From Apostichopus japonicus (taxonomy: Eukaryota > Echinodermata > Holothuroidea > Aspidochirotida > Stichopodidae): a stretch of DNA of 64,000 bases. This document shows, in pieces, positions 7,231-63,556 of the stretch. The notes under the pieces are model-generated. The model had not been told where the DNA came from. It searched no databases and worked only from the letters and a program-made list of their open reading frames with translations. Location of the stretch: positions 6,697,001-6,761,000 of the forward strand of contig NC_092579.1 of assembly GCF_037975245.1 (NCBI RefSeq), given 5' to 3'. How positions within the stretch are numbered: the first letter of the stretch is position 1; each line of letters starts with the position of its first letter. A program made the translations under genes and the position numbers.

Positions 7231-7852
7231 CAGGGGCGTAGCGAGCGGGGGGGTGTCACACCCCCCCAATAATTTGGCCGCTGTCGGCAAATTTTGGGTC
7301 TGTCGGCAAAAGGAGAAAAGGTGAAGAGAGCGGAAGGGGAAGAAAGAAGGAAAGCTGAATAGAGAAAAGGAGAACGGGAGCTTCTTCCGTGCCAAATTTG
7401 ACTTAAAATATGCACCAGATTGCATCTAAGGACGTTTCAAAACGAAAAATTTTCCAAAGGGGAGGGGTAGACCCCCTACCCTTAGACCCCTCCCCCATTT
7501 CAGTCACCACTTCCAGATCCGTCGGCAAATCAAATTTGACTTAAAATATGCACCAGATTGCATCTAACGACGTTTCAAAACGAAAAATTTTCCAAAGGGG
7601 AGGGGTAGACCCCCTACCCTTAGACCCCTCCCCCATTTCAGTCACCACTTCCAGATCCGTCGGCAAATCAAATTTGACTTAAAATATGCACCAGATTGCA
7701 TCTAAGGACGTTTCAAAGCTAAAAATTTTCCAAAGGGGAGGGGGACACCCCCTCCCCTTAGACCCCTCCCCCATTTCAGTCACCACTTCCAGATCAGTCG
7801 GCAAATCAAATTCTCCACACCCCCCAACAAAAACCCCTTCGCTACGCCCCTG
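7231..7852. mobile_element. Non-autonomous hAT-type transposon, 622 bp, perfect 8-bp TSD
   Basis: Terminal inverted repeats start CAGGGGCGTAGCGA on both ends. The element is flanked by identical CAAAAAGA octamers at 7223-7230 and 7853-7860, the target duplication length of hAT. It contains GTCGGCAAA repeats near the left end and three tandem copies of a 138-bp unit at 7393-7806, each with a G-rich/C-rich palindrome. No transposase reading frame is visible. Confidence 0.92.
7393..7806. repeat. 138-bp tandem repeat inside the hAT element
   Basis: Three copies starting at 7393, 7531 and 7669, nearly identical. Each runs from CAAATTTGACTTAAAATATG through a GGGGAGGGG...CCCCTACCC palindrome to GTCGGCAAAT. 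The third copy has a slightly different palindrome centre. Confidence 0.93.
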
Positions 7853-9377: not shown

Positions 9378-9443
9378 TTATTTTTTCTTGACCAGTTGTT
9401 TATTTTTTCTTGACCTGTTGTTTATTTTTTCTTGACCAGTTGT
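9378..9443. repeat. 22-bp tandem triplet across the CEP131 stop codon
   Basis: Three copies of a 22-bp unit at 9378-9399, 9400-9421 and 9422-9443, differing by one or two bases. Read on the minus strand each unit carries the C-terminal LVKKK codons, the TAA stop and AATAAA or AATAAG. The gene-proximal copy is coding and the other two lie in the 3' UTR. The hexamers are candidate polyadenylation signals immediately downstream of the stop. Confidence 0.9.
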
Positions 9444-9557
9444 TTCCGTTGCTGTTCTAGAAGTGACTCCAGGTGGTCCGCTCTCTTCACTGCAGATGCC
9501 TGCTGCTCTTTGAGTTGGTTCACAACCTCTTCTTTCTTAGATATCGCATGCTTTACT
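9422..9557 (-). CDS. CEP131: CEP131 terminal coding exon 19
   Basis: Residues 1177-1221 plus stop. VKHAISKKEEVVNQLKEQQ then AVKRADHLESLLEQQRK match VKTALARKEEAVSSL and AVKRADHLEELLEQHRR. It ends in LVKKK. The TAA at 9424-9422 overlaps an AATAAA hexamer and lies inside a 22-bp unit present three times. Confidence 0.95.
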
Positions 9558-12500
9558 CTTTGGGGGAAATAATCAAATTTAAACTAAATATGGTACATGG
9601 AAAAAATGTTCTAACATGCCATTATCTTAATAATCCTTCCCAAACAGCAGCATTAACCTATTTCTCATCCATCTCTTCTGTCTTGCATCTCCCATACTTT
9701 TCCAATTCTTTTGCCACCATTTCAATTCAGGAATTGAGGTTACTTCATTGCTGTTCAAGCCTTAAGTTGACTTAACTCTTAATCTGATATAATCCACCAT
9801 CTTGTAAGGTAACCCATCATCAGTGGTATTCATCTCTCCTCTCCTCCACTAATCCATACCTTCTATGTACTTCCCCCATCTCCACTAATCTCTCCTCTCC
9901 TAATCCAAACCTTCTATGTACTTCCCCCATCTCCACTAATCTCTCCTCTCCTCCACTAATCCATACCTATGTACTTCCCCCATCTCCACTAAACTCTCCT
10001 CTCCTCCACTAATCCATACCTTCTATGTACTTCCCCCATATCTACTAATCTCTCCTTTCCTCCACTAATCCATACCTTCTATGTACTTGCCCCATCTACA
10101 CTAATCTCTCATCTCCTCCACTAATCCATACATTCTATGTACTTCCCACATCTCCACTAATCTCTCCTCTCCTCCACTAATCCATACCTTATATGTACTT
10201 CCCCTATCTCCACTAATCTCTCCTCTCCTCTATTAATCCATTCCTTCTATGTACTTCCCCTATCTCCCTTCTCCTCTATTAATAAATACCTTCTATATAC
10301 TTTCCCTATCTCCACTAATCCCTCCTCTCCTCTACTAATCCATACCTTCTATGTACACCTATCTCCACTAATCTCTCCTCTCCTCCACTAATCCATACCT
10401 TCTATGTATTACCCCTATCTCCACTAATCCCTCCTCTCCTCCACTAATCCATACCTTCTATGTACTTCCTCCATCTCCTCATCCTTGCTCGTCTCTATCC
10501 TGCTTATCTCCAATTTATGCCTGGCTCTCATCTCCGACATCTCATTTTTCAACCTCTTGTTCTCTTCCTCCGTGGCGACCAGCCGATCTGCAAACTCCTG
10601 ACGAATCACGTCTTGGACGTTGTTGCGTTCCTTTGTCAGTCGGTCGCAGACCTGGTGAAATAATTAATAATATAATGATCTTAATTATGCAAAATAAACT
10701 AGTTAAATAAATAACTTGCAAACAGCTTCAAAAAATAACTTCTGATCATAAAACGGTACTACAGCTGTAAACATTACCAACTTATTCATGTTCAGTTATA
10801 CAAAATGCTAGTTATTCCTCAAATCGTGTATGTAGACAACCAAGCCAAACTAACACAGTTTAGCCGCCCAGTCGAGCTCTCCTACAATTTTCTTTACTTG
10901 AGATTTCTCACATGTTGATCCTTCATCATACAAACGATAACATAACACCAACAAATTCCAAATATTCACTTCAGCTCTTTCTTCAACTTATTTGAAATAT
11001 AAAAAAAAAAATCTGACTATTTGGATAAGTGATGATAAGTATCCTCATGACCTTTGACCTCCTATGATCATCTTGTATAACTCTGACCAGACAGTAGCGT
11101 ATCCACACCATCCATCCCATTCTCATTCAAGTTTTCTTACCTTCTTGGTATCTTCAACTTCCTGTCCCTTCTGTTTCAGTAATCCCTGATACCTGAAGTT
11201 CTCCGCCTCGAAATCTGCCAGCTTAGCTTTGATTTCGTTATATCTCTCCTGGGTGTTCCTCTCGGATAACTCTATCTCCTTCAGCTCCGCCTCATATTTG
11301 TCTCGTATCCTCCTAGAAACAGAGCAGAACAGACATTGCGACGAGAGTGCATGCAAAATTGAAATAATAGGTTCACTTTACTTTCGACTTGTTGCTAGAA
11401 CAGTAAGAACCAGTAGGGTAAAGAAATAAGGGAAGGGGCAGGACAGAGATAACCCTCTGTTTGGAACTGCTAAATTAATTGGCAGGGCCAATTTTAAATG
11501 GATAAGTACCTTTCTGTGTGAAACCTTACTACCCCCCCCAACCCCCTCACCACCACCTTCATGCCCTAATCATGTCCAAATTGCTCAAGCTTTTCTTGAA
11601 AACTACATTTCAATAACTTTTTATAGAAAAACATCTATGACGTTTAGCATGTAACATGTCTGCAGTGTTGCTTTGGGCAATTTTTGCAAGATGGAAACCA
11701 GACTCAATTTATCAATGTCCCTATCAACACCCACCTTATAAAGAACTTGAATCTGTTGCTCTACACCGGGAGTTCTCAACATGCAGCGCACAAAGAAATT
11801 GGCCCACACTCTTATGCCGATGGGGTATGTTGCTTTAGGCTTGTGCAACCTACCAGCCCTTCCCTTCACATCGCACAATAAATTTAGAGTGGAATTTGGG
11901 TTCTCTCTGGACCTCTTTAAAAAGTTACCCAAAAGCCCCTGTTCTACTCTTTAAATATGACTCACTTGATTCTATTCTCGGCAGCCCTCTCCGTCTCGTC
12001 CCTGGCTGTTGCTGCATCTTCTTCTAGTCTAGTGATGACTAGCTCTATCTCCCTGTCTCTCTCTTCTCTTACTTTCTCCTTCAGCTCCCTCTCCTTGGAC
12101 ACCAGAACAGTCTCCTGTTTCTTCATGTAGTTTTCCTCCCACGACTCCTTCTCGATCTTCAACCTCTCGTTGAGGTCTTTCATCTCGTTCTGTCATGATG
12201 AAAGCATACACACCCATCAGAACGTCTCCAAACATCCAAAAGGGCAAGACATGAGCATTTGAGAAATGTACATTGGATACTTCGGACATTCCAAACTCTG
12301 CTAGAGGGTGAATAATCTGACATAGGCGTTAAAAATTCGTCAACGCAAAATTCTACCTCTTTTGAAGTATTCTTGGTCTGTGACACACATTCCCCTCAAC
12401 AGAGAGTTACCGAATGCCTTCATTGTTAGATAGAAGGCAAACAACCAATTGAAAATCACATCCTGTTCATACCTCATTTTATCCCCTTATCCTACCCTCC

Positions 12501-15500
12501 TATAGCATACCTTGTCTTTCCTATATCATTCCTTTCTTGTCTTTTGAACTTTCCAACTTCCATGACACCTCAACAAGTCCTTCCTCTATCATCCTCTCCC
12601 CTGGTCATCCCTGCCTTTGCCACTCTTCCCCCCCCTCCCCCCCCATATTTTGATCCCATTCCTTATCGTATTTCTTCTCCCCTGGTCATCCCTGCCTTTG
12701 TCACTCTTCCCCTCCCCCCCCACATTTTGATCCCATTTCTTACCCTATGTCTTCTCCCCTGGTCATCCCTGCCTTTGCCACTCTTCCCCCCTCCCCCCTT
12801 CCCCCCACATTTTGATCCCACTTCTTACTGTATGTCTTCTCTCTTGCTCATCCCTGGCTTTCTCATACTCCTCTCTTAATGTAGATAGAGCTTTCCTGTT
12901 GTTCTCTTCCATCTGATGCTGTAACCTATCTAGTTCCTGCCTCTGTTTCTTAGCTTGCTCCGCTATCCTTTCTTTCTCCTCCTGTACATCCTGATACAAC
13001 CTCCTCCTCTGCTGCTGGAAACTTGCCTCTTCCTGCTCTAACTGCTTTTCATATCTAAAATACAAACAGCAAACTCTTATACATATGCCAAACTTGAAGG
13101 ATTTATCTTACAACATTCCTTGAGCTTGCTGTTCCTTGTCATGTGTTAGTTACTCCATGGCTTCCACCCAACTGTATGATTATTTTACTTAGATCACTTT
13201 CTGGCTCTAACCTTTGTTTGCTTAACTCCCTCTCTCTAACACATCCCTGTTCCTTCTCATCCGTTTGTTACTCGATGAGTTACATACCTCTCTGATTTTT
13301 TTACTTAGATCACTTCCTGGCTCTTACCTTTGTTTGCTTAACTTCCTCTCTCTGGCACATGCCTGTTCTTTCTCATTGGTTAGTTGTTCCACCAGTTCCA
13401 TACCTATTAATGAAGATCACTCATTGGCTCTTACTTTTATTAGCCTAACTCCCTCTCTCTAACACACCACTGTTCCTTCTCATCCATTAGTTACTCCATG
13501 AGTTCCATACCTCTGATTTTTGTACTTTCTCACTTGCTGGCTCTTACCTTTGTTTGCTTACTTCCCTCTATCTAACACATCCCTGTCCCTTGTCATGAGT
13601 TAGTTACTCCATCAGTTACATACGTCTCTGATTTTTGTACTTTCTCACTTGCTGGCTCTTACCTTTGTTTGCTTACCTCCCTCTATCTAACACATCCCTG
13701 TCCCTTGTCATGAGTTAGTTACTCCATCAGTTACATACGTCTCTGATTTTTGTACTTTCTCACTTGCTGGCTCTTACCTTTGTTTGCTTACCTCCCTCTA
13801 TCTATCACATCCCTGTTCCTTCTCATCCAATAGTTACTCCATGAGTTCCAATCTCTCTGATTGTTTTTACTAAATCCCTTTCTGGCTCTTACCTTTGTTT
13901 GCTTAACTCCCTCTCTCTGGCACATGCCTGTTCTTTCTCGTGGGCTAGTTGCTCCCTAAGTTCCTCTGTATGATGAATGTATTTTTGTCCAGCTCTCTCC
14001 TCTGACTGGAGTAGCTCTGCTTCATGAATCGTCTTTATCTTTTTGATTTCAGCTTTGTGATTGGCTATCAGTCTCTGTATTTCAGGTTCCAGTCCTTTGA
14101 CAGTAATCTCCTATAGAAATGGATTCAAAAAATTTTCTTTAAATAAAAGAAATCGTCTGCAGACTTTTACAGAATTACTTAGATCATGCGACGATTGGCA
14201 GTTCAAATGCATGATGATACGTACATATGCAAAGTTCCTTAACTTTGCCTTTCAAAGGAATGGAACAAATTCACCATCAACTAAAACCGTAGTTAAACTG
14301 GACATACTTATACATTGAAGCTTTTTAAAGTTTTGCCAACATGATTGACGGTAACAGTAAATTTCAGCGGTTCCTTTGATTCACTGCTCCACACATAAAT
14401 GAACTACTTCTGTACAATCCTGCAACATTTCTATACCGATCGCTAAACTTTCAGCCCTGAGGATACGAAATCTAGCTTCAATTTCATTGGTGTATCCTGC
14501 AATGTTGTTGCAGAAATATTGTCTTGATGACATTCATTTTCGTTGCAGATAAATATGAACACACTGTTCGATCCCGGGATGGGATCCTTCCGGGGAAATG
14601 TCTGGTAGAATCAGAGGGAAACAATCTGTTACAAATTTAGAAGACTGTTTTCGTTAGGTGGCGGAGAACAGATGTTAGAGATGGAAGAATAGCTGTTGAG
14701 TTGTCTGTATTTTCATTGAAACTTAACATGATTAAGTGAAAGAGAGACTAAAGGTGGGGGGGGGGCTTTGGATTAAGTGTTAGCCAGTGTGCTGTCTAAG
14801 GAGTAAAAGGTGGAGAACTGAGGATGGTTGGGGCGGAAATGAACTTAGTAATAGTGTAGCTAAGGAGAAGGCCTTTAATAAAGGGGTCTTTAGATAAGTT
14901 CTTATTGAAAACTTTGCCATTTTTAGGGAGTTGAGATTAGTGAAAAGGTGGTTACAGTTAGCAGCTTCTAAGACATGTCTGGTACTGATATAGCTGTTTG
15001 TAAGACAGACACTGAGTTTTTCAAGTATTTGCTTAGTATTAGCAGAGGGGGAGTGAGGCAATCTGATGCCATTACAGACTACATACTAATATATAGTACA
15101 TAAGTAGCTCAGGACTAACAGAGCAACAAAATAGAGCTTTAAATATTGATGTGGAAGTCCAAAAACGCACCTTGCAACTTTTCTGCTATTTTATTGTAAA
15201 GGAGCTATCTGCTTCCTCATCTCTCTTCAACCAAAAAATTGCACAAAAAGTGCAAAACTGCCACCATTTCAACAAATAGGACACTGCGGCACAATAACTG
15301 CAAACTCACCAACCCGATCTTCAATTAGTTTTATACACACAACCTGCTTCATATTAAAGTGAAATTCAAACAGACACCGGTTATTTATTCATTCATTTAT
15401 AAGGGGGAAATTAACTTTACTTTTCCATCGTAATACCAATTATTCATCCGTTATGGTAGTTTTTGGTAATTATTATGGTAAGTTTGATTCACTCCTACCT

Positions 15501-18500
15501 TGATCTTCTTGGTTTTCTCATCGATCCATTTCTCTCTTCTGATTTTCTCAGCTGCTGCGTGTACATCTTTCACTTTCTGGAGTTCTAGTCCCTGGCTGCA
15601 AAAAATCAATAGAACAGTCAATGAATGGATCAATCAATCAAACTATCTGTCAATCAATCAATCATAAAATAGAAAGAACAATAAAGACAAACAAAAACAA
15701 GACAAAACTGGGGAGAAAAAGGGTAATATCAACTAATAAACAGGTGAAACTTTATGGTTATGTAAATGAGATTAGTCTGAAGGGAGAACAGGGCATTAAT
15801 CATATCGCAATAACAATTTATCATTCTTCAGCACACGATCACAAAACTATTCTCCAGAGGATGCTGGAGACTTTCAGCGGCAACAATGAGAATCAAACTA
15901 CACACATTTCAGTCAGCAGAATGTCATAGGGAGAAGTCATAACGTGGAGACGAATTTAAGTCTTTTATGACAATTTAAAGTTGTGAAGACTCGCGTACAA
16001 AGAAACGTCTCGTGCCGGTAATCTGACCTAGTTTGAATGAAGTGTAACAGAAGTATTAGACACCACCATCGATCCCAGAAAATACACACACAACTTGCTA
16101 CCGTCGGTAATTAGACACTAGTGTACAGTCAATATATATAGCTGCGGTTAATACCCACAACACAGTGTACATAGCAGCGATGGACATCTCAGGTCTAGAT
16201 AAAAGATAACAAGGTATCACGTTTCATTACTGTCTGCATTTTGTAGCGACAAGAAGAAAATGTCATTTGCAAGCAAGGGAAAGTTACTTTTTCAGAGTGC
16301 GGCACGCGGTTTGGGGCGAGTCTTCAATTCCTTTAAGATCTCTGTGACATAGTTAGGGTCCAACATGGAGAGAATTCAATGAAAGCCTTACTTTTCCTCC
16401 ATGGACTTTATTCTCCCCTGGTACTTCTTATCGACTTGCTTGAGTTCTTGGACGACTGAATCATATTTCTCATTCAGAGCTTTCTTATCGTCGATCAGCT
16501 GCCAAAGAATGCAATAGAGGGAAATATATTAAAGAGAAGTGAGTTAATAATCACAAATAAAATATCCATCCTGAGAGTCAAAATGAATATCTGCAATGAC
16601 AGCCTTACGGTCAATTAGTTCGTCGTTTGTCTCTCGTTTCACGATGCTAATACTTGGCTGTACAGATAAAGCTAAAGGCATCATTTTATGTTACAAAATA
16701 AACACATTTTAGGTAAAATTATTTCACAGGAAGCAGAAAATTAAAACAAGATCCAGCACACATTTACTGCTTTTTTCTTCTTATTTTTTCGTGGTTCTAT
16801 ATTAAAGATGACATAAACAATCTTATCAAACTCAGAAGTTAAATAGCAATATTTAACAAACAACGAATATTCATTTTTAAGTTTGCATATGAACAAATTA
16901 TGCAGTAACATCATCTACTGTTGAAAAGTCAGTTCATGTACATGTGAAAATTTAATCCACCAAAAATTGCAACAAGAAACTTCCACGGTTTGTGAAGAGA
17001 TAAATAATAACATCACATTTATTATGTGGAACACAAGTTTTCATGTATCTGCCTGATAAATACTTTTTGTATGTTCATACCCTGATTGATGCATGATTAA
17101 TATTTCTTGATGGTAAATACCTGATCAATAAACGATAAATGTCTCCTGATGGTAAATACCTGATCAATAATTGATAAATGTCTCCTGATGGTAAATACCT
17201 GATCAATAAATGATAAATGTCTCCTGATGGTGAATACCTGATCAATAAATGATAAATGTCTCCTGATGGTAAATACCTGATCAATAAATGATAAATGTCT
17301 CTTGATTGTAGTCTCATATTCTTCCTTTTGTAAGTTAAGCCTCTTCTTCGTCTCTTTGTCCTGTTCTTTCGCGTGTCTCACTGTCAGCTCTCGTTGCTGG
17401 TTCTGATAATATAGACACATTGAAGTGTACTTATTATTATTTATCGACGTGTCTACATGACATCTAAGATAACGCACAATCAACCTTTGCCAGGAATTGA
17501 ATATATTTCAGTACCTTGTATCTCAGCAATACAATGAGAAATTTGAAATGAGCATAGAACCCATAAGGTGCTTTCTAGATTCTTTTTTATTTTTTCTACT
17601 TATTGAAGTTTACTGTTACTTTGATCCTAAGGGTGGGGGGGGGGTAGTATGTCATGTCTCTAACATTATTTTTTTAAGACAACAATGAACTTTGTGTGAC
17701 AGATGTACTCTGAATAGAGAAAACTTTTCACCACACTGTTAATTTACTCAGAAGAGCTTGTGTGTGTCAATATGTAAAACATAGAGGGCTTGAGGATTCG
17801 ATCCTAGATGGAAAATATCAGATTTTTCAGATCTTTTTACAGATTAATTTTAAAGAGTTTACACATTATTCGCGGAAGTTTTCAAACCTAGTCTTAATTT
17901 GCCAAAGTATCCATTTCACATTTTTACACTAACAGCTCCGAATATCATACACACCTGACTTTAATATTAGTGAGGGTTGACCTTGTCATTCTATTAGTAT
18001 TATTACAATTATCATGGACCTCTTTGCATCTAACTGTACAAACTAGACACAGTTCCCACCTTGGCCTGGATATGACTACTGTAATTACAAGCATTACCCT
18101 AATTGGCAAAAATCTGGACTTACAAGACCCTTCTGGAGCATTTTGATTGACCGATCCTTTTCATCCAGCTGAAGTCGTTGAGAGAGGATGGTGCTGGTGA
18201 CCTCAGAGGCAGCAGCCGATGCTTCCTCCAACTTCTGAATTTCTTCAGCAGACGGAACTAAAGTAGGAGGATTGGCCAAATCCTCATCACCCTAGAGATG
18301 AAATGAGAAAGAATTGTATGTATGTATTCTAGATCCTCCTGCAAGCAGGAACTCGCGAACAAGCGTCATAGGCTTATCAAAGCCGCAAGCTGACCGAAGT
18401 CAGTCTCTTACATTCGTATTTAACGTCCATGATTATGAATTGTTAATTGTCAACAACTCGGTAACTGGACGACATACATTAACCTGGGAGTGACTCGAAC

Positions 18501-20247
18501 CGGGGACCTTATGATTGAAAGGCACCGGCGTTTACCACTGAGCTAACACTCCTTAAAGATGGAACAAAGATGGAAAGAATTGGATAATTCTGCACCCCGA
18601 ATGTGATAGGGAGACATTTCATTTCGAAGTTTATCACACAAAGTTCAGCAAATGATGTGGTTCAAAAGATTGACATTTTTAAATATCCTTTTGATTCTTT
18701 AACCATCTGAAAAACACAATAGAAACTCAATGAAAAAACATTCACGAGTATGATATGGCTTGGAACCTCTTCTTGAAAAATCGATTGACATTTAATGATC
18801 TCAAATTACTAACCTCAAATGTTATTATGTATACATGTACTTTTATATGTAAAGTGACCATCAGTGAAAATGTGCTGGGATATATTGACATTGACTACAC
18901 AGCAAACCACCGTTGACTATATGTGTAAGTTACCAGTTTAGAGCGATTCATTTTGAGTTGTTAAGAACATTCAACTTATTTCTCAAAATTTTTAAATTTT
19001 CAAATTGAAATACAAAAGTTGTTAGTAAAATTTGTTCTGTCTTTGGGAATGTCAAAACTCTAGTTTCTTTCGTGATAAACAAATCGTCTCTCTTGATGGT
19101 ACATAACTGATCGATCAATGATTAATAAATTACATCGAATTGATTCTCACCTTTTGCTGTTTAAGCTACCACACATATCAAGCTACTTATTTATGACACT
19201 ATATATGAGAGCCTTATCAGTAAAATATTATATAAAGTTCTTGAAAAATGATGATCTTAAGCTCCTTGTATTTCTCTCTTTTCTCTTTTATTCTTGTAAT
19301 TTGCATCGTATTTATTCTCACCTTTGCATTAACCTGGCTCACACTCTCTGGATCTGTGTCGTCAATTTCATCCAAGAATGACATAATATTTCTAAAGGGA
19401 AGATAGCAATGTGTACCACAATATTATTGTTTAAGATTTCAATCTGATAGATATTACAAACCCTTTGATGCATATTCATGCAAAAGGAATTCAGTGCATG
19501 GAATCCCCTAAATCTGTAACATCCATTGGCACAAAACTAACACAATCCACACATTAGTGCACCTACAGTCTAGTACCTGCCTAGAATTCTAACTGCAGAT
19601 AAATCTTACTGATAAATTTTTATGTTCTTTATTGTGCTTTATTGTTCTTTATTGTTCTTTATAACCCTGTCTTATATCTTTTTTTACTTTTATTGCTGTT
19701 GTTATTACTTTTACGTTTTCTTAAGTTTGGTAATTTTATATTCCTGGTATCGGTTCTTTTGTACAGTTTTTTTTGTACAGTGTTCTTGAGCATGTTTTAT
19801 TTCATGATAACAGCACTTTAATATATGGTATTTATTATTATATTTTTTTTATTATAAGTCTGACAGATACTGCAAATCCTATGCTGTATATTAATGCCAA
19901 AAATATCAGTGTGTGGAATCTCCTATAACTGTAAGATCCAAAGGTATAATACTAACACAATCCACACATTTAGTGCACCTACATCTAGTGCCAGCCCAGA
20001 ATTCTAACTGAAGATAAATCTGAATTAATTTTTTTATTCATTTAAGCAACATGTCATCTATTCTCACATATATGTACATGTATATATATAGAGAGAGAGA
20101 GAGAGTTGTCTGATGATCGCTCAAAGCATGAAACTCTGAGTAACAACTACTAGTGTTCCACTAGTCTCAACTTATTCTCATCGATACTTCGCTCTGTCCA
20201 CCGGACATAGAGCACTCTGCGCCAAGACTGATGCCACCCAACCAAAC

Positions 20248-20290
<43 letters not shown>

Positions 20291-23200
20291 TATTTTCCAT
20301 TGCAGATCGGTATTTCTAAAGTTTTATTTCATTAAAGAAGTCTTACTTTAATTTCTGTTCTGTAAGCAAGGCGTGACTGTTTGGTTTTCGTTTTGGCTTC
20401 TCTGGGACCTTGCCAGATTTGGTCATTTCTTGAAGATTCTCTGCTGAGAGGTAGACTGGATTTGAAGATGCCTTAAGATGGTTCGGTTCGGTATCTTCTT
20501 CTTGCTCTTCCAAACCTCCATCCTCTTTGTCATCGAAAATGTCCACTAGAAAACAACGATCGGAAGCAATCAGTTACTCAAAGCAGTGTGTTATCAAAAT
20601 GTGAAGTGAAAGATACTGATTTTTATTCAAGAATGCAACGTGAAAATCAAATATGAAAACTGACAGAAATAAATACTTATTACCGCCTCGCGTTGACTGA
20701 CATGCAATCAAAATCACTCTGGCGGATTCAGCCAGGTTAAGTTGTCCTCATTGGTTACCTCATGCTTAATACTCTTCATGCTGCAGTGAACACTCAAGCC
20801 CCTGCAGCTGAGTTTAATGATGAGCCTTCAAGCAGTGGCGATGCCAATATATGGGCCTGCTAGCAGGTAATCTTGACAGACACTCTACAATGAGATATGA
20901 CAAATTTAACCAATCAAGGAGAGGTACATGGCCTACATAGAGGATTAATTTCAAAAGTTTATAGAACATTTAAGTATGTAGTTCTAACCCTGCAACATGT
21001 CCTAAATCTTTCTTTTTTTCTTTCTTTTTCTTAAGTTGTGGATTTTATTTAAGACTTAAAACTTAAGGATTTTCTTGCAAACAATCAGTTCAACTTTTTC
21101 TTACACCATGCTGGTCCTTTTGGTTTCTTCATTTCTGGGCTTTTTATCCTGACTGGCTCCTCTAGTTGTTTCAAGGTGTCTAGAAGGTCATCTAAGGTCG
21201 TCTTAGTATGAGTTGTAACTGAAGGCGTCTCAGGGACATCTTCACTGGGGTCGTCTTTCCCCGGTGTCCTCGGAGATGACCCCTGTGAGGTCAAATCAAA
21301 ATTTGAATAACACCAATATCTTGTATAAAATGAGTGAGAATTGTTTTGAGTTTGCAGCCCTAGTTATTACAACTACTCCATTGAGTGTATTGCATCGTCT
21401 CCCAGCAGTAATATAGTGTACAGGATTTATACACGAGTCAAAACAGATATGGCAAGTTTTCTAGCGTTGATCATACGGCGACATTATCGTTAGGTTCAAA
21501 ATAGTAAGTCACTAAAGAGCAGGGATATTTTTTTTTATTTGGACTGCTTAACTTGTGTGAAAACCTGTATAAACATTGTACTGCAAACATGGCAAATGTG
21601 AATAATAATAATGTACCATAAATATGTCAAAATCCAGTAAGAGACTAACCGATTGAAAAATATCCTCTACTTTTTTGCCAACACTGCTGGCAGTCCCGGG
21701 CCTCTCGCTCATGGCAGTTGCATGCTGGTTAACAGATTCCATGTCGCCACCTGAAGCAAGTTTACCATTCTGGCCGGCTGGTTTCTTTGTTGTTTTCTTG
21801 GATGTCTTTTTCTTGACCTTTCCACTAGCTTCCAGAAATTTCAATTCTTCCTCTGCTTTCTGTTTAACTTCTCTCTGTCTTTCATCTCTCTTCCTTTGCA
21901 ATTCCTATGATTTAAAGAAATGATTTGTCAGACGAGATGGAGACCGGCAAAGCTGTGTTAACATGTAGGATAGGATATCTCTCAATAGCTCTAGTAAATG
22001 TATCTTATCATGATGTATCCTATTATGATGTAAATAATATGTCCTAAAAAAATAAAAAATAATGAAAAATAAAATACCAAAAAAATGATGATAATAATAA
22101 TAATAAAATGATGAAGTCATTACCTCAATAGCTGCCTGTCTGGCCAATCTCTGTTTCTCTTCTCTGATCCTCTTTCGATCCTTCTCCCTCTTCTCCTCCG
22201 TCTCTCTCTCCTTCCTCTCTCTATCCATCATATCAGCTCTCTCCTGCCACTTGGTCCTCAAGACTTTCCTAATTTCATCCTCTCCATCTTTCCTCTGGTC
22301 TGCCTTTCTGCCCCTATACCACCTCTGAATCTTTGTGGCTGAATCATTCATTGATTGGATCAGTTCCTCCGCCATTGGGTGCTCGACCTCATTTTGACCC
22401 CATTTCTGTCTCTCCCTCTCTAGACCATCCCCTGCGACATTTTCATCTAAACTTTCTGGTCGGTGAGTTCTACCCCTCCCGCTCGGTCGATAAACTATTT
22501 CTTCGTTCTCGACGAAGTCGTCGTCCATGTTTCGGGGTTGGTGTCCGGAATGCACAGAGTTTAATACATTTGCGAGGGAACTTTTAACGAGATCTTTCGT
22601 GTCGATGTGAGACGATATAAGATCCTCTGGGTTAAGCCTTGGAGTAAAATCTCTTGAAGAGTTCAATTTGTCGTTATGGATATCGAAACCAGAAGCAGGG
22701 CGTGATGAATGGGGCTCATAAGAGCTAACTGTGCTTGTACTTCTTGCACTGATAGGAACAGCAAACGCTCTACTTGATAACTGCAATATGAGAACAAAAT
22801 TAAGTCACATGCAAGTAATGAAAGTTGTGCTTTTGCGAAGAAGCAGTTTAAGACAAGGCTGCACATAACAATACTGTTCTGTGTCACTTTGCCTACAAAA
22901 CTTTGAAATGTACCAGTAAATCTTATTGTTTCTCTTACTCTATCATTGCTTGAATCTATCTTGGATTAAGAAAAAGTGTACTTTAGTCACAATCGATCAA
23001 CAAATCAATCAATCAATCAATAGATAGATCTATTAGTTTCAATTCATATAACAACAAATAAAGTAACTACAATTTGGTGACATTTTTACGCAGGATAAAG
23101 GACAGACATACCGGTTCCTGACGTTTCTTTGTCGAGACTTTCTTTGCCTTGCTTGCGGTTCTGTTTTTGATGATTGGTTGATGGTGAGAAGAGTCAAACA

Positions 23201-25764
23201 AAGCAAGAAAATCATCCGAGCTGTAAGAGATAAAAGTAGATATCAATTGATGAAATCAATAAATATATTTCATGGATGATCATGACCATCAACTGTCACA
23301 GGGATGAAAGGATTTAGGGTAGTTGATAGTTAAACATCTCTCCAGATAGGCCAACCCACCCTTGGAAGTTGATTAAATCAACTGTTTTATAATTACAGAT
23401 AAATACACTCAGTCACGGTCAATCATTCTCTTACTTGACACTACTCATCTTTACTGTAACCAGACCTGTTCAGGTAGCCAACAATCTATAGAGAATGCCA
23501 GTTTTCTTCCAAATGACAACTTGATTGTTGCCCATTCTTTGGTTACACAAATAAGCTTACTACCATTGCATTACAGTTTAATACAGAATTTGTACAGCCT
23601 GACATACATATATATATAATATTGCACTGCAGTATTAAATGCAATAATGCCTACAAACGCTTACATAAAGTAAACTGGCTTCTTGCTTTAATGAAGAAAG
23701 GCATTCAGCTGGTAACTCAGGATAATTACTTGATTATATCCAATAAATACGATAACAAAATGTGGTGCAGTCTTCTATTTATTACTTTTATTATAACTTA
23801 CCTTGGCATTTCTTTACTTTTCAGTAAGCTGGCAGCACTACTGCCATTGCTTGCAGTGCTTCTGTTGGTAGACAATCCAGTATTCAGACTCGATGCTGTG
23901 TGTGGGGTAAATACAAACAAACCAGTATAATTACATTAGGTTATTCACTCAATTCTTTAAATCCAGTAATTCACTGAAAAATGAAAATAGCCTTGCATGA
24001 CTTTTGCATGACTTCTGTTCAAATAGAAGCATATAGATACTTAAGTGGCCTATCGATCTCTAAGCAGCCTTTTATAAACCGTTAGAGTCAACAACAAGTA
24101 TTCACTTACCAAGAAACAGGGCAAGGAAAAGAAGTAGGCAGACAAATCAAATGCAAATGTCACTTTGAGATAAAGTTTGATTCTAAAGCTATGACAATGG
24201 TATGGTGGACATATTGCTTTTGCTGACCAGTGCCTGATGGCTATGTCACATTGAATAGTTCAAGAACAAAGTTGCACACACTTCCATAAAACCTAATATG
24301 AAATAATGTGAATACAAAATGACTTATTATTAAGGGTTTCCTGTGGTCTGACGAATAGAATATACTGATGCAGACTTTCTGTCTAAAGATAGTTGGCCCA
24401 ATGAACCACCAATATTTTCATTTGTAAATAACATTTATACTGGTGATGAAAAAATTTGCTAATATAAGAAACCATTAAGTAAAACTCAGTGACCACAGTG
24501 AAACATAAAAACCCCAAAATAGACATCTAGGACATTGATACTATGAAAACAATCTTACTTTTTAATCCTCTCAGTTTCTTTTATAATTTTTTCATTCACA
24601 GGGCAAACTAAAGTAAATAAGACTTAATCATTTCACAAACCTCTTTTGTGTCTTCTGTTGTCCACTTTACCATCCAGTCCACTTAAAGAGCCACTGGAGA
24701 AATTGCCATTCTACCAAAAACAAGAAGGGGATACTAAAGTAGGAATTAAAACACATATTAGAGGACAGCATTTGAGTAATCCAACCCACATTATAACTGA
24801 AACCAACAACAGTTGAGAGTTGGTTCAAATTCTTCCTGCCAAAGTGTAAAATTTTGCTTCCTAGTTGTACTACTACAGCCTAGTTGTACTGTTACAATAT
24901 ATGGGACATGGTTGGTATGTACGTTGCAGTGTTAAAGTAAAAGCTTATTGAATTTGACATCAACACCTCGCATACAGGTTAATGTTAGGTTAATAGGTTT
25001 ATTCTTCCATACCATCTAATCATATAGAAATGATCGTTTAAGAATTATATAACATAATATGCAGTTATGAACTATAAAATATATGAAATATAATTATTGC
25101 TTAAAGGCATGACAAAATCAACACTATGTTTTCTTACCAACCAATCGATTCTCCCTATTAGTGAATTCTCCAGGAACTAGAACACCCACAAATCTTCTGA
25201 GAATGACACATTTGTAGAATTTCATTAATATAGTGTCTGGATCTCTTAGTGAAACTTTTTATTTTATTCATAAGCCTTTCAAAATTTGGGACTGGAATCA
25301 ACAAAAAACTTGTTAATCTACATCAGAAAAGCAGTTTTTTTGCATCTTTCAACCATAAAAAAAATATTAATCATATATTGAGAACTATCAATATAACAAA
25401 CCATATCTCCACTAGGGCCATCTACATTATGTGATGATTTTCTCCTTTCTTCAGCTGATGTTGGGAATACTCCTTTGACCAATGGCTTATCACTTGTGTT
25501 CTTTCTTGAACTTCTCGGTGTTCCAACATTACTTCCAAATGAAACAGACCTTGCACTGGATGGTTCCTTCCCAGGCTTTCTACTTCCAGAAGCCACCCTG
25601 CTGTTACCATTTGGTCTATTAGACCCGCTAGATGCTGGTCTGTTACTAGCACTTCTCACACTCCCACTGCTGTTTGGACGGGAACCAGATGACGAAGATG
25701 GTCTCTTTACGGCAGAGACTTGAGAGCCGGATAGGCTCAAGCTGACCTCCCCAGACCTTGGCAT
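9422..25764 (-). CDS. CEP131: CEP131 (AZI1), centrosomal protein of 131 kDa, 19 coding exons
   Basis: CEP131 is a centriolar-satellite and transition-zone-associated protein needed for ciliogenesis and centrosome integrity. Joined coding exons, 5' to 3' on the minus strand: 25402-25764, 24641-24710, 23802-23895, 23112-23220, 22124-22780, 21650-21904, 21105-21282, 20347-20545, 19322-19391, 18124-18291, 17277-17402, 16392-16498, 15499-15595, 13893-14110, 12829-13054, 11966-12189, 11141-11312, 10455-10651, 9422-9557. The sum is 3666 nt, so 1221 residues plus stop, against about 1083 in human. All phases close. Family signatures seen: a low-complexity Ser/Arg-rich N-terminus (residues 1-210), an IQ motif IQRWYRGR near residue 363, IMSFLDE near 643, RHLSFIDQ near 756, REKWIDEKTKKIK near 820, IRQEFADRL in exon 18 and VKRADHLE near the C-terminus. 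From about residue 700 the protein is almost continuous coiled coil. An AG acceptor 4 nt upstream of the ATG implies a further non-coding 5' exon that I could not place. Identification is by recalled family sequence, not a search. Confidence 0.95.
9826..10460. repeat. 56-bp tandem array seeded at the exon 18 donor of CEP131
   Basis: Twelve copies including the exon itself, mostly 56 bp apart (a few 46-53). Each contains the exon-18 end (minus-strand GTACATAGAAG) followed by donor-like GTATGG and a pyrimidine-rich (plus-strand) spacer. Ten of eleven intronic copies keep the GT; the copy near 10241 has lost it. The array fills about 70% of intron 18. Reading through the true donor meets a TAG within about 30 nt, so use of a distal donor would truncate the protein. 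Confidence 0.92.
10455..10651 (-). CDS. CEP131: CEP131 coding exon 18, 3' end amplified downstream
   Basis: Residues 1112-1176. VIRQEFADRLVATEEEN and EMSEMRARHKLE match VIRQEFEDRLAASEEE and LATLQARQQLE; it ends EEVHRR. Donor AGAAG|GTATGG, phase 2. The donor region is repeated eleven times downstream at about 56-bp spacing. Confidence 0.95.
11141..11312 (-). CDS. CEP131: CEP131 coding exon 17
   Basis: Residues 1054-1111. RIRDKYEAELKEIELSERN matches RLRDKYEAELSELEQSERK; then FRYQGLLKQKGQEVED. Acceptor TTTCTAG, donor AAG|GTAAGA, phase 0. Confidence 0.95.
11966..12189 (-). CDS. CEP131: CEP131 coding exon 16
   Basis: Residues 980-1053. NEMKDLNERLKIEKESWE aligns with MELNTLKQQLELERQAWE; it also has EERDREIELVITRLEED, matching KGRDKEIELVIHRLEAD. 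Acceptor ATGACAG, donor ATCAA|GTGAGT, phase 2. Confidence 0.95.
12597..12865. repeat. About 80-bp tandem array seeded at the exon 15 donor of CEP131
   Basis: Three intronic copies plus the exon. Each has a segment matching the last roughly 37 coding bases (minus-strand GGGATGA then GAGAAGACATA), the donor region and a C-rich (plus-strand) tract. The copy nearest the exon keeps GTAAGAA; the copy near 12664 reads ATAAGGA and has lost the GT. Variable poly-C length accounts for the unit-size differences. Confidence 0.85.
12829..13054 (-). CDS. CEP131: CEP131 coding exon 15, 3' end amplified downstream
   Basis: Residues 904-979. FQQQRRRLYQDVQEEKERI matches ALQQQRQRLYSEVAEERERL; it ends REEYEKARDEQERRHT. 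Acceptor ATTTTAG, donor CATACA|GTAAGA, phase 0. The last roughly 37 coding bases and the donor region recur three times downstream. Confidence 0.94.
13115..13975. repeat. About 115-bp tandem array seeded at the exon 14 donor of CEP131
   Basis: Six clear intronic copies plus the exon and a degenerate partial copy at the far end. The donor core recurs at 13207, 13323, 13430, 13543, 13658, 13773 and 13888 (true), mostly 113-116 bp apart. Each unit has about 80 bp like the 3' part of exon 14 and about 35 bp of intron. All six copies keep a GT donor (GTAAGAGCC or GTTAGAGCC). The array makes up more than 90% of intron 14. The copy at 13323 retains nearly the whole ACARER(E/K)LSKQ coding segment. 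Confidence 0.93.
13893..14110 (-). CDS. CEP131: CEP131 coding exon 14, 3' end amplified downstream
   Basis: Residues 832-903. EITVKGLEPEIQRLIANHK matches EVTVRGLEPEIQKLIARHK; later HEAELLQSEERA and EELREQLAHEKEQACARERE. Donor AAAG|GTAAGA, phase 2. The final roughly 80 coding bases and the donor recur six times in the following intron. Confidence 0.95.
14111..15498. other. CEP131 intron 13
   Basis: Holds a G-run (about 14757) and a block at 14640-15080 that, on the minus strand, is open for 93 codons with CCCAAC/CCACC pyrimidine-rich sequence. The encoded sequence is not recognised and lacks a domain; it may be decayed retroelement DNA. Confidence 0.4.
15499..15595 (-). CDS. CEP131: CEP131 coding exon 13
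   Basis: Residues 799-831, ending IRREKWIDEKTKKIK, almost identical to ARREKWISEKTKKIK in vertebrates. Acceptor TTTTGCAG, donor AAG|GTAGGA, phase 0 out. Confidence 0.95.
15975..16336 (+). mobile_element. TTAA-flanked MITE, copy 1 (Kolobok/T2-like)
   Basis: About 362 bp bounded by TTAA on both sides (15975-15978 and 16333-16336), with terminal inverted repeats. The right end read inward is TTAAAGGAATTGAAGACTCG; the left is TTAAAGTTGTGAAGACTCGC. The TTAAAGGRR end resembles the T2-MITE/Kolobok signature. No coding capacity. It sits in CEP131 intron 12, 55 bp from the exon 12 donor. A reverse-oriented relative is at 26045-26397. The superfamily is inferred from the ends only. Confidence 0.8.
16392..16498 (-). 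CDS. CEP131: CEP131 coding exon 12
   Basis: Residues 764-798, LIDDKKALNEKY...QELKQVDKKYQ, matching LIEDKKVLSEKCEAVVAELKQED. Acceptor TTGGCAG, donor GAAAA|GTAAGG, phase 2 out. A MITE copy ends 55 bp beyond the donor. Confidence 0.93.
17100..17310. repeat. 39-bp in-frame tandem array at the exon 11 donor of CEP131
   Basis: Five donors, CAG|GTATTT four times and CAG|GTATTC once, spaced 39 bp apart, each preceded by codons for RHLS(F/I)IDQ. The unit is 13 codons and has no stop, so the frame stays open through the array until a TAA after the last copy. A degenerate edge at 17095-17115 ends the array. Confidence 0.94.
17277..17402 (-). CDS. CEP131: CEP131 coding exon 11 (RHLSFIDQ), junction amplified downstream
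   Basis: Residues 722-763. NQQREL...EEYETTIKRHLSFIDQ matches vertebrate QQRDL...EHYEATIQRHLAFIDQ. The donor is CAG|GTATTT. The last 24 coding bases plus this donor are repeated four more times downstream at 39-bp spacing. The proximal donor is chosen because exon 12 resumes LIDDKK directly after a single RHLxFIDQ, as in vertebrates. Confidence 0.92.
18124..18291 (-). CDS. CEP131: CEP131 coding exon 10
   Basis: Residues 666-721. It ends ILSQRLQLDEKDRSIKMLQKGL, the first heptads of the long coiled coil (vertebrate VEEKKQAMLLLQRAL). Acceptor ATCTCTAG, donor CTT|GTAAGT, phase 0. Confidence 0.9.
18317..18572 (-). mobile_element. tRNA-derived SINE with target duplication
   Basis: On the minus strand the head reads GGAGTGTTAGCTCAGTGGTA, with a Pol III box A (18534-18546) and box B GGTTCGAGTCA (18491-18501). 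About 155 bp of tRNA-unrelated body follows, ending in a GTAT/ATAC simple tail near 18317-18330. Direct repeats GAAAGAATTG flank it at 18307-18316 and 18573-18582; the right one lies 20 bp beyond the tRNA head. It lies in CEP131 intron 9. The acceptor and T stems do not pair as in a functional tRNA. Confidence 0.75.
19322..19391 (-). CDS. CEP131: CEP131 coding exon 9
   Basis: Residues 642-665. NIMSFLDEIDD corresponds to the conserved SIMSFLDEME of CEP131. Acceptor CCTTTAG, donor AAAG|GTGAGA, phase 0 out. Confidence 0.93.
19441..20030. repeat. Direct duplication (about 170 bp) around a LINE-like tail
   Basis: 19441-19612 and 19856-20030 are diverged copies of one sequence, sharing ACTAACACAATCCACACATT, TAGTGCACCTACA and GAATTCTAACTG blocks. 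The intervening roughly 240 bp is the LINE-like fragment. Intronic in CEP131. Confidence 0.75.
19619..19860 (+). mobile_element. LINE-like 3' end fragment
   Basis: A T-rich untranslated-type sequence ending in GCACTTTAATATATGG and TATTTATTATTATA, resembling the terminal region of CR1/L2-type elements. No coding frame. It is bracketed by the two copies of a direct duplication in CEP131 intron 8. Family assignment is by general appearance only. Confidence 0.35.
20083..20290. repeat. Retroelement-like fragment bounded by TA/GA microsatellites
   Basis: A GA repeat at about 20090-20104 and a (TA)n tract at about 20251-20289 enclose a block with the minus-strand motif GTTACTCAGAGTTTCATGCT followed by GCGATCATCAGACAAC, reminiscent of Penelope-like element ends. 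It lies in CEP131 intron 8, just inside the exon 8 donor. Family assignment is tentative. Confidence 0.4.
20347..20545 (-). CDS. CEP131: CEP131 coding exon 8
   Basis: Residues 576-641. Acidic DIFDDKEDGG start, then LSAENLQEM (vertebrate LTADNLEKF) and LLTEQKLK (vertebrate LLSEAKLQ). Acceptor TTTCTAG, donor TTAAA|GTAAGA, phase 2 out. Confidence 0.9.
21105..21282 (-). CDS. CEP131: CEP131 coding exon 7
   Basis: Residues 517-575. It contains LDDLLDTLKQLEEP, matching LEELLHTLQLLEKEP in vertebrates, and ends GPAW, matching RYAW. Two GT donors lie side by side; TGGT|GTAAGA is chosen because it preserves phase 1 into exon 8. Confidence 0.9.
21650..21904 (-). CDS. CEP131: CEP131 coding exon 6
   Basis: Residues 432-516. 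It starts ELQRKRDERQREV, continuing the charged helix after the IQ motif, then becomes Lys/Ser/Thr-rich linker ending VEDIFQS. Acceptor ATCATAG, donor TCG|GTTAGT, phase 0 on both sides. Confidence 0.88.
22124..22780 (-). CDS. CEP131: CEP131 coding exon 5 (IQ motif)
   Basis: Residues 213-431, the largest exon. It carries a disordered segment and then the IQ calmodulin-binding-type motif ATKIQRWYRGR near residues 360-370, followed by a strongly charged helix (EREKD/RKRIREEKQRLARQAAIE) matching the EEKARQARRAAIQ region of human CEP131. Donor ATTGAG|GTAATG, phase 0. Confidence 0.93.
23112..23220 (-). CDS. CEP131: CEP131 coding exon 4 (DFLALFD motif)
   Basis: Residues 176-212. It contains DDFLALFD, equivalent to the conserved TDFLMLFEG block of CEP131, followed by a Lys-rich stretch. 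Acceptor CTTACAG, donor CCG|GTATGT, phase 0 out. Confidence 0.88.
23802..23895 (-). CDS. CEP131: CEP131 coding exon 3
   Basis: Residues 145-175, containing LSTNRSTASNGS, comparable to the NNLRRSNSTTQ segment in vertebrates. Acceptor CACACAG, donor CCAAG|GTAAGT, phase 1 in and 2 out, which joins exactly to the SDDFLALFD start of exon 4. Confidence 0.8.
23896..25401. other. CEP131 introns 1 and 2, with exon 2
   Basis: Apart from exon 2 (24641-24710), AT-rich intronic DNA with no repeat or RNA gene recognised. Confidence 0.6.
24641..24710 (-). CDS. CEP131: CEP131 coding exon 2
   Basis: Residues 122-144, Gly/Ser-rich and then basic (VDNRRHKR). Acceptor TTGGTAG, donor AGAG|GTTTGTG. It enters in phase 0 and leaves with one base. 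It is weakly conserved, and the call rests mainly on phase fit with exons 1 and 3. Confidence 0.7.
25402..25764 (-). CDS. CEP131: CEP131 coding exon 1 (start codon)
   Basis: Residues 1-121. The ATG at 25764-25762 opens MPRSGEVSLSLSG, which matches the VDLSLTG region near the start of the vertebrate protein. A polypyrimidine-poor ...CTATTAG ends four bases upstream of the ATG, so the 5' UTR is probably spliced. The exon is Ser/Arg/Asn/Pro-rich and predicted disordered. The donor ATG|GTTTGT leaves phase 0. An upstream in-frame Met at 25857 reads through the putative acceptor and is less likely to be the start. Confidence 0.85.
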
Positions 25765-28648: not shown

Positions 28649-55721
<27,073 letters not shown>

Positions 55722-60446: not shown

Positions 60447-60990
60447 CATATGTATATTCTGTGCATGGGATGAATGTGTATTCTGCCAATGAGATATGTG
60501 TATTCTATTCATGGAATATGTGTATTCTGTCAATGGGATATGTGTATTCTATTCATGGAATATGTGTATTCTATTCATGGAATATGTGTATTCTGTCAAT
60601 GGGATGTGTATTCTCTGCATGGGATATGTTTATCCTGTTCATGGGATATGTTTATCCTGTTCATGGGATATGTGTATTCTATCAATGGGATATGTGTATT
60701 CTATCAATGGGATATGTGTATTCTATCAATGGGATATGTGTATTCTATCAATGGGATGTATGTGTTCTGTCAATGGGATATGTGTATTCTCTGCATGGGA
60801 TATGTGTATTCTATCAATGGGATATGTGTATTCTCTGCATGGGATGTATGTGTTCTGTTCACGGATACATGTATTCTGTGCGTGTAATATGTGTATTCCA
60901 TGCATGGGTATATATCTCCTTTGTGTGCAGTGTATATGTATTCTATATGTTGGGGTATATATATCCTTTTTTGTAGGATATATGCATTCT
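60447..60990. repeat. 22-bp minisatellite downstream of CNOT3
   Basis: About 24 copies of a 22-bp unit, consensus close to ATGTGTATTCTATCAATGGG plus AT, decaying after about 60880. Variants TTCATGGAAT and GTCAATGGGAT alternate in the first part, suggesting 44-bp higher-order duplication. Because 22 is not a multiple of three and lacks stops, long open frames appear on both strands; they are not genes. Confidence 0.93.
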
Positions 60991-63482: not shown

Positions 63483-63556
63483 AGCGCCATAGCCTAGTGG
63501 TTAGGGTGTCCGCGTACAGAGCGGAAGGCCCGTGGTTCGAATCCCGGTGGAGGCTG
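63483..63556 (+). repeat. tRNA-like sequence / SINE head
   Basis: Box A TAGCCTAGTGG (63490-63500) and box B GGTTCGAATCC (63534-63544) are intact. The anticodon stem TCCGC/GCGGA is perfect with a GTACAGA loop, giving anticodon ACA. The acceptor stem has three mismatches of seven and the T stem two of five, so a functional tRNA is unlikely. It is embedded in long TA repeats. A decayed tRNA or SINE head is the best reading. Confidence 0.65.

Follow-up and report, generated by a model that had tools for sequence, protein, structure and literature searches.

"Mirages" is the name given in amphioxus to minisatellite-like tandem duplications of an exon/intron boundary, which may lie at the 5′ or at the 3′ side (PMC3087553, PMC3902484). 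They have been described in Adh3, in the globin genes BflGb6 and BflGb9, in troponin C and in PGBD5, with a repeated unit of about 10–160 bp, and many of the copies, although not all, retain the splice signals (PMC3087553, PMC3902484). The lancelet PGBD5 carries two such arrays within one gene, and normal splicing was reported for the cases described (PMC3087553, PMC3902484). Another process in which splice-site sequence is duplicated in tandem is intron gain from AGGT-containing segments, presented under the Rogers model with ATP2A1 as a case and the potato RdRp gene as a variant (PMC4974935). Tandem repeats are also found inside introns as ordinary minisatellites, at a rate that in the genome considered here is similar for interior and junction-spanning arrays.

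The present analysis deals with a window of 64,000 nucleotides from the sea cucumber Apostichopus japonicus (contig NC_092579.1, positions 6,697,001 to 6,761,000 of the forward strand), and more precisely with one gene in it, CEP131, for which an earlier note had claimed that introns 11, 14, 15 and 18 each open with a tandem array spanning the exon/intron junction. The four arrays were indeed recovered, by Tandem Repeats Finder (TRF) and by a gene model. The note also took them for something not yet described, a claim that has to be given up: amphioxus mirages are the same phenomenon, and PGBD5 already offers two arrays in a single gene. On every testable feature the CEP131 case is of the amphioxus type, its splicing outcome being presumed. 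The tandem unit spans the exon/intron boundary; its length, 39 to about 115 bp, falls within the 10–160 bp range; the splice signal is kept in many but not all copies (GT in 22/24); and both kinds of boundary are duplicated in a sample of sea cucumber genes (13/278 donors and 8/284 acceptors), with 0/16 acceptors in CEP131 itself. What differs is the host, here an echinoderm, the presence of four or five arrays in one gene, all of them at donors, and the fact that a rate has now been estimated in a gene sample together with an interior-intron control. Among the matches listed for the open-licence literature, covered by titles and abstract openings, there was no echinoderm or sea cucumber report of such arrays. 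With AGGT intron gain the locus shares a tandem duplication involving splice-site sequence, but a new intron is made there, whereas the copies found here lie in introns that already existed, with the frame unchanged across the modelled junctions. Each CEP131 array sits inside one modelled intron whose acceptor is unduplicated, which would argue against a gain of this kind. Finally, CEP131 units differ from ordinary intronic minisatellites in taking in the edge of an exon together with its splice site. The observation of the earlier note stands, its claim of an undescribed and donor-specific phenomenon falls, and its interpretation is partly supported.

The CEP131 gene model

Junctions were counted on a model covering positions 9422–23220 of the minus strand, built from splice consensus and reading frame. 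It comprises 16 exons: a (23112–23220), b (22124–22780), c (21650–21904), d (21105–21282), e (20347–20545), f (19322–19391), g (18124–18291), h (17277–17402), i (16392–16498), j (15499–15595), k (13893–14110), l (12829–13054), m (11966–12189), n (11141–11312), o (10455–10651), and p (9422–9557). The model starts at exon a, additional 5′ exons lying outside it, and exons a to o join in one open frame when the exon-proximal donors are used. Introns 11, 14, 15, and 18 of the earlier note correspond to exons h, k, l, and o, paired by spacing and order.

The gene name is that of the earlier note and is taken here as an assumption; the human protein, on which it also rests, appears to agree with the model at the four array-bearing junctions. 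A Pfam search with the model protein gave no family match. Between exons h and i, an exon-like stretch of 49 nt (16609–16657) can be seen by eye, preceded by AG and followed by GTAAGG; it was omitted from the model because its inclusion breaks the frame. A CEP131 intron also holds a tRNA-like stretch on the minus strand (about 18480–18552), which looks like the head of a SINE. At gathering scores, Rfam reported a sole tRNA in the window (63487–63550) and none at about 18480–18552.

Donor arrays in CEP131

At 4 of the 15 modelled donors a tandem array begins with a unit that crosses the junction, as seen both with TRF and with a junction test in which the 50 bases centred on the junction are aligned to the surrounding 2.4 kb. 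All four TRF arrays start within the exon and extend into the intron, with measured copy spacings of 39, about 115, 77–85, and 46–56 bp that agree with the earlier note. The junction test found copies at donors f, h, k, l, and o, with 1, 4, 6, 2, and 11 intronic copies respectively, and GT is present in 22/24, so that the claim that most copies retain it is confirmed. The same test found copies at none of the 16 modelled acceptors, again as the note had stated. The copies differ from the authentic unit in 6 to 40% of dinucleotides. In what follows, donor strength is given by a weight matrix built from this genome.

At exon h, the array (17093–17310, minus strand; 39 bp × 5.6 by TRF) places four intronic donor copies at +39, +78, +117, and +156, three of which score equal to the authentic donor. 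The reading frame stays open as far as all four, each copy adding 13 codons. The array of exon k (13194–13964, minus strand; 115 bp × 6.8) has six intronic donor copies, 4/6 with a score identical to the authentic one. Exon l (array at 12595–12861, minus strand; 77 bp × 3.3) has two, one of them without GT, while a truncated third is visible from the TRF span; its +85 copy scores 9.3 against 5.5 for the authentic donor. The longest series belongs to exon o (9832–10478, minus strand; 56 bp × 11.9), with 11 intronic copies, GT in 10, and scores identical to the authentic donor in 6/11. The copy numbers given by the earlier note, 4, 6, 3, and 11, hold for the arrays of 4, 6, and 11; the third copy of the array spaced at about 80 bp is the truncated one, the count being 2 otherwise. 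Exon f, absent from the note's list, has a single degenerate copy (19126–19175, minus strand) about 170 bp into the intron behind the authentic donor at 19322, and this sole copy also scores equal to it. The frame of exons f, k, l, and o closes ahead of the copies, and their use would therefore truncate the protein. The sense strand shows a GC skew of 0.46–0.92 at arrays k, l, and o, and no skew at h.

Own-genome searches with the array stretches, partly so for the 56-bp array, found no second place, simple and very common words being skipped by the search; the 56-bp array also matched its neighbouring copies. Because these searches matched the query place only, the four units appear mutually unrelated at that sensitivity, in line with the note.

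Other arrays lie in the window. An array of 22 bp × 3.1 (9378–9445, minus strand) covers the coding end and the stop codon of exon p (9422–9557); it is an exon-end array, yet there is no splice junction there. Further away, an array of 78 bp × 6 (44053–44539) starts about 11–15 bp past a putative donor GTAGGT (from 44038, by eye), near the junction without spanning it, and its unit has a donor-like ATGGTGTAAG. A 22-bp × 21 array (60448–60913) has three open frames on the plus strand, and a 138-bp × 3 array with 97% matches is found at 7393–7812, adjacent to a sequence that looks transposon-derived.

Arrays at donors, acceptors, and intron interiors

The rate of such arrays was estimated on exons of kinesin, myosin, and dynein genes of the same genome. 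The first set holds 247 exons from 66 genes, retained out of 277 matches (myosin 55/70, kinesin 120/126, dynein 72/81); matches lying in very long open frames or with several stops, and those that were isolated, short, or low-scoring, were dropped by hand prior to the array search. A second set of 58/85 dynein matches comes from 12 chosen regions, six of them in genes with a first-set array, and is thus non-random. Splice sites were called by weight matrix, with phase and profile continuity as further guides for exons that had neighbours, and callable ends only were counted (228 donors and 230 acceptors of the 247 exons, 50 and 54 of the 58). Copies more than 500 bp from the junction or past the retrieved flank fall outside detection. 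The donor counts exclude L102, a repeat copied on the exonic side of the junction; the weak donor repeats L061 and L124 lie under the threshold of 24. Dinucleotide shuffles of the sampled regions gave arrays in 0/184 and 0/181 cases; a chance origin of the CEP131 arrays is unlikely, because a like test gave 0/184 on shuffles at threshold 24.

In the first set, junction-spanning copies on the intron side were found at 12/228 donors and 8/230 acceptors (Fisher p = 0.37), or at 14 and 8 with a looser threshold (p = 0.20). The second set adds 1/50 donors and 0/54 acceptors, bringing the 305 exon matches to 13/278 donors (4.7%) vs. 8/284 acceptors (2.8%), with p = 0.27 in a sample too small to exclude a two-fold donor bias. 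Donor/acceptor pairs fixed by phase and profile continuity (140, i.e., 103 + 37) have arrays at 7/140 donors and 5/140 acceptors. Pooled, 21/562 junctions, or about 4%, have a duplicated splice site. Several acceptor arrays, of 4, 6, and 8 copies, match the length of the CEP131 arrays: in dynein genes, L119, L002, and L134 show 6, 8, and 4 intronic copies, and L133 in a kinesin gene shows 4. An acceptor array and a donor array occur together in the dynein gene at C23:0.83 Mb. The idea of strict donor-only genes was rejected, the sole donor array of the second set sitting in a gene that already has an acceptor array.

Intron interiors were no quieter. In the first set, 287/3664 interior points lay in a local repeat, and 175/3496 did so when introns with a junction array were excluded; the second set gave 60/819, and the points in repeats beside array-free junctions amount to 235/4,315 for both sets combined. 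Exon middles were hit in 1/305 cases. Arrays thus treat the exon edge much like intron, since the rates are similar and the deep exon is nearly free of them. A bootstrap that resampled genes put the frequency at junctions at 0.39 to 0.78 of that in interiors overall, part of the latter being due to the junction arrays themselves. The earlier note had held that a proneness of donors would fall if junction-overlapping repeats proved equally common at acceptors and in interiors. A scan of this kind, run on the sample, largely gave that result: acceptor arrays exist (some with 6 to 8 copies), interiors are at least as often hit, and donors (13/278) and acceptors (8/284) do not differ significantly, so that the sample does not support a genome-wide, donor-specific proneness.

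Arrays also gather in certain genes, the first-set junction arrays being found in 14/66. Pairs of arrays in the same gene number 7 against 2.9 expected (p = 0.03, threshold 24) or 7 against 3.5 (p = 0.07, threshold 20). In the other introns of genes with a junction array, repeat points average 10.7% (104 sides) vs. 3.2% in the remaining genes (333 sides), with sides of one gene not independent and L102 counted as a junction array. This comparison replaces a per-gene correlation between junctions and interiors (rho 0.66), discarded because junction arrays reach into interior points. The clustering is modest; in its light, several arrays within one gene are less surprising.

On small contigs of the same assembly, COX1 pieces were found at C29:14745–31219, besides the mitochondrial contig C35, and would be either nuclear copies or leftovers of the assembly. 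C35 begins with COX1, and the frames that follow look like ND4L and COX2, in keeping with the gene order of echinoderm mitochondria.

Conservation and sequence bias of the copies

Over all arrays, CEP131 included, GT or AG is kept in 75/78 copies (GT 46/49, AG 29/29), against about 84% for other dinucleotides relative to the authentic site. This raw retention is misleading because the authentic site is itself constrained, which favours constrained positions. It was therefore rejected as a sign of selection on the copies, and a small copy-against-copy test shows only a slight difference: conservation is 0.94 for GT vs. 0.92 and 0.885 in the flanks (10 arrays, four from CEP131), and 1.00 for AG vs. 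0.94 and 0.96 (6 arrays). Selection on the splice dinucleotides of the copies finds no clear support, and a weak one may still act.

Sampled donor arrays are purine-richer than array-free donors over intron positions +6 to +56 (0.558 vs. 0.465, p = 0.006), and acceptor arrays are pyrimidine-richer than array-free acceptors (p = 0.005), these p values being uncorrected for the several windows tried, some of which showed no difference. A purine bias was looked for in interior donor-side arrays, and none was seen there. Given the purine-rich donor arrays and pyrimidine-rich acceptor arrays, the junction sequence may itself favour duplication.

Origin of the arrays

The explanation we favour, with a probability of roughly three in four, is the generic birth of intronic minisatellites by local tandem duplication that ignores exon edges, in a repeat-prone genome; a "mirage" would appear whenever the edge of an exon happens to fall within the duplicated unit. 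Slippage or unequal exchange would duplicate a unit of about 40–160 bp, and further rounds would expand the array and partly homogenise it. By the sampled rates, arrays occur about alike at donors, acceptors, and intron interiors, and almost never in mid-exon, where they would alter the protein. The copy adjoining the coding sequence would stay a working splice site, while the extra ones would remain intronic and be tolerated, since the exon-proximal site is presumably used. As arrays tend, modestly, to cluster by gene, a gene such as CEP131 could gather several.

The donors of certain genes, CEP131 among them, could instead be mutational hot spots, where a purine-rich sense strand would lead to R-loops or to slippage in transcription or replication. 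The contrast within CEP131 (arrays at 4–5/15 donors vs. 0/16 acceptors) suggests as much, as do the GC skew at k, l, and o, the purine-rich donor arrays of the sample, and a sampled donor estimate above that of acceptors (4.7% > 2.8%); but this last difference is non-significant (p = 0.27), array h has no skew, interior donor-side arrays lack the purine bias, and the dynein gene at C23:0.83 Mb bears both array types. CEP131 also exceeds the sampled donor rate, at 4/15 vs. 13/278 (p = 0.007) or, with exon f, 5/15 (p = 0.001), values that are not clean because the gene was picked for being striking. Its donor richness and donor-only pattern form a post hoc excess beyond the generic explanation. 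On balance, hot spots of this sort seem unlikely. Quite unlikely, too, is the picture of donor-specific amplification in some genes, CEP131 included, driven by purine-rich sense-strand DNA at the donor, with ladders of equal or stronger donors ranked by position and exon h perhaps encoding a length-variable protein.

Selection could also have built the ladders, either as a buffer of the donor against mutation or as a means of tuning isoforms, as at exon h. The earlier note had offered decoy ladders as tolerated or selected: tolerance of copies born from local duplication fits the evidence, while selection has no clear support from comparisons between copies. GT is kept in 22/24 CEP131 copies and the frame of exon h is open to all four of its own, and yet core conservation between copies is not clearly above that of the flanks, the use of copies at f, k, l, and o would truncate the protein, and junction-free interior arrays are equally common; we regard selected decoys as improbable. 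An assembly artefact, for which nothing was found to speak, is hardly credible, given that the CEP131 copies diverge from the authentic unit in 6 to 40% of dinucleotides, that arrays recur in 14/66 sampled genes, and that the published Apostichopus japonicus assembly is described as built from PacBio HiFi reads (PMC10344927). Equally far-fetched, and likewise with nothing found in its favour, is an origin from mobile elements or introners bringing splice sites with them, for the four arrays have no second genomic place within the limits of the search, and every unit includes the local exon end.

Implications

Arrays of this kind form a natural test set for the way in which the spliceosome chooses among near-identical sites, some CEP131 copies having a weight-matrix score equal to or above that of the real donor. 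If the donor-specific reading were true, the spliceosome would have to rank equal or stronger donors by position. At such arrays, gene prediction may be misled into false or overlong exons. Lastly, the sea cucumber case suggests that mirages are apparently not confined to amphioxus.
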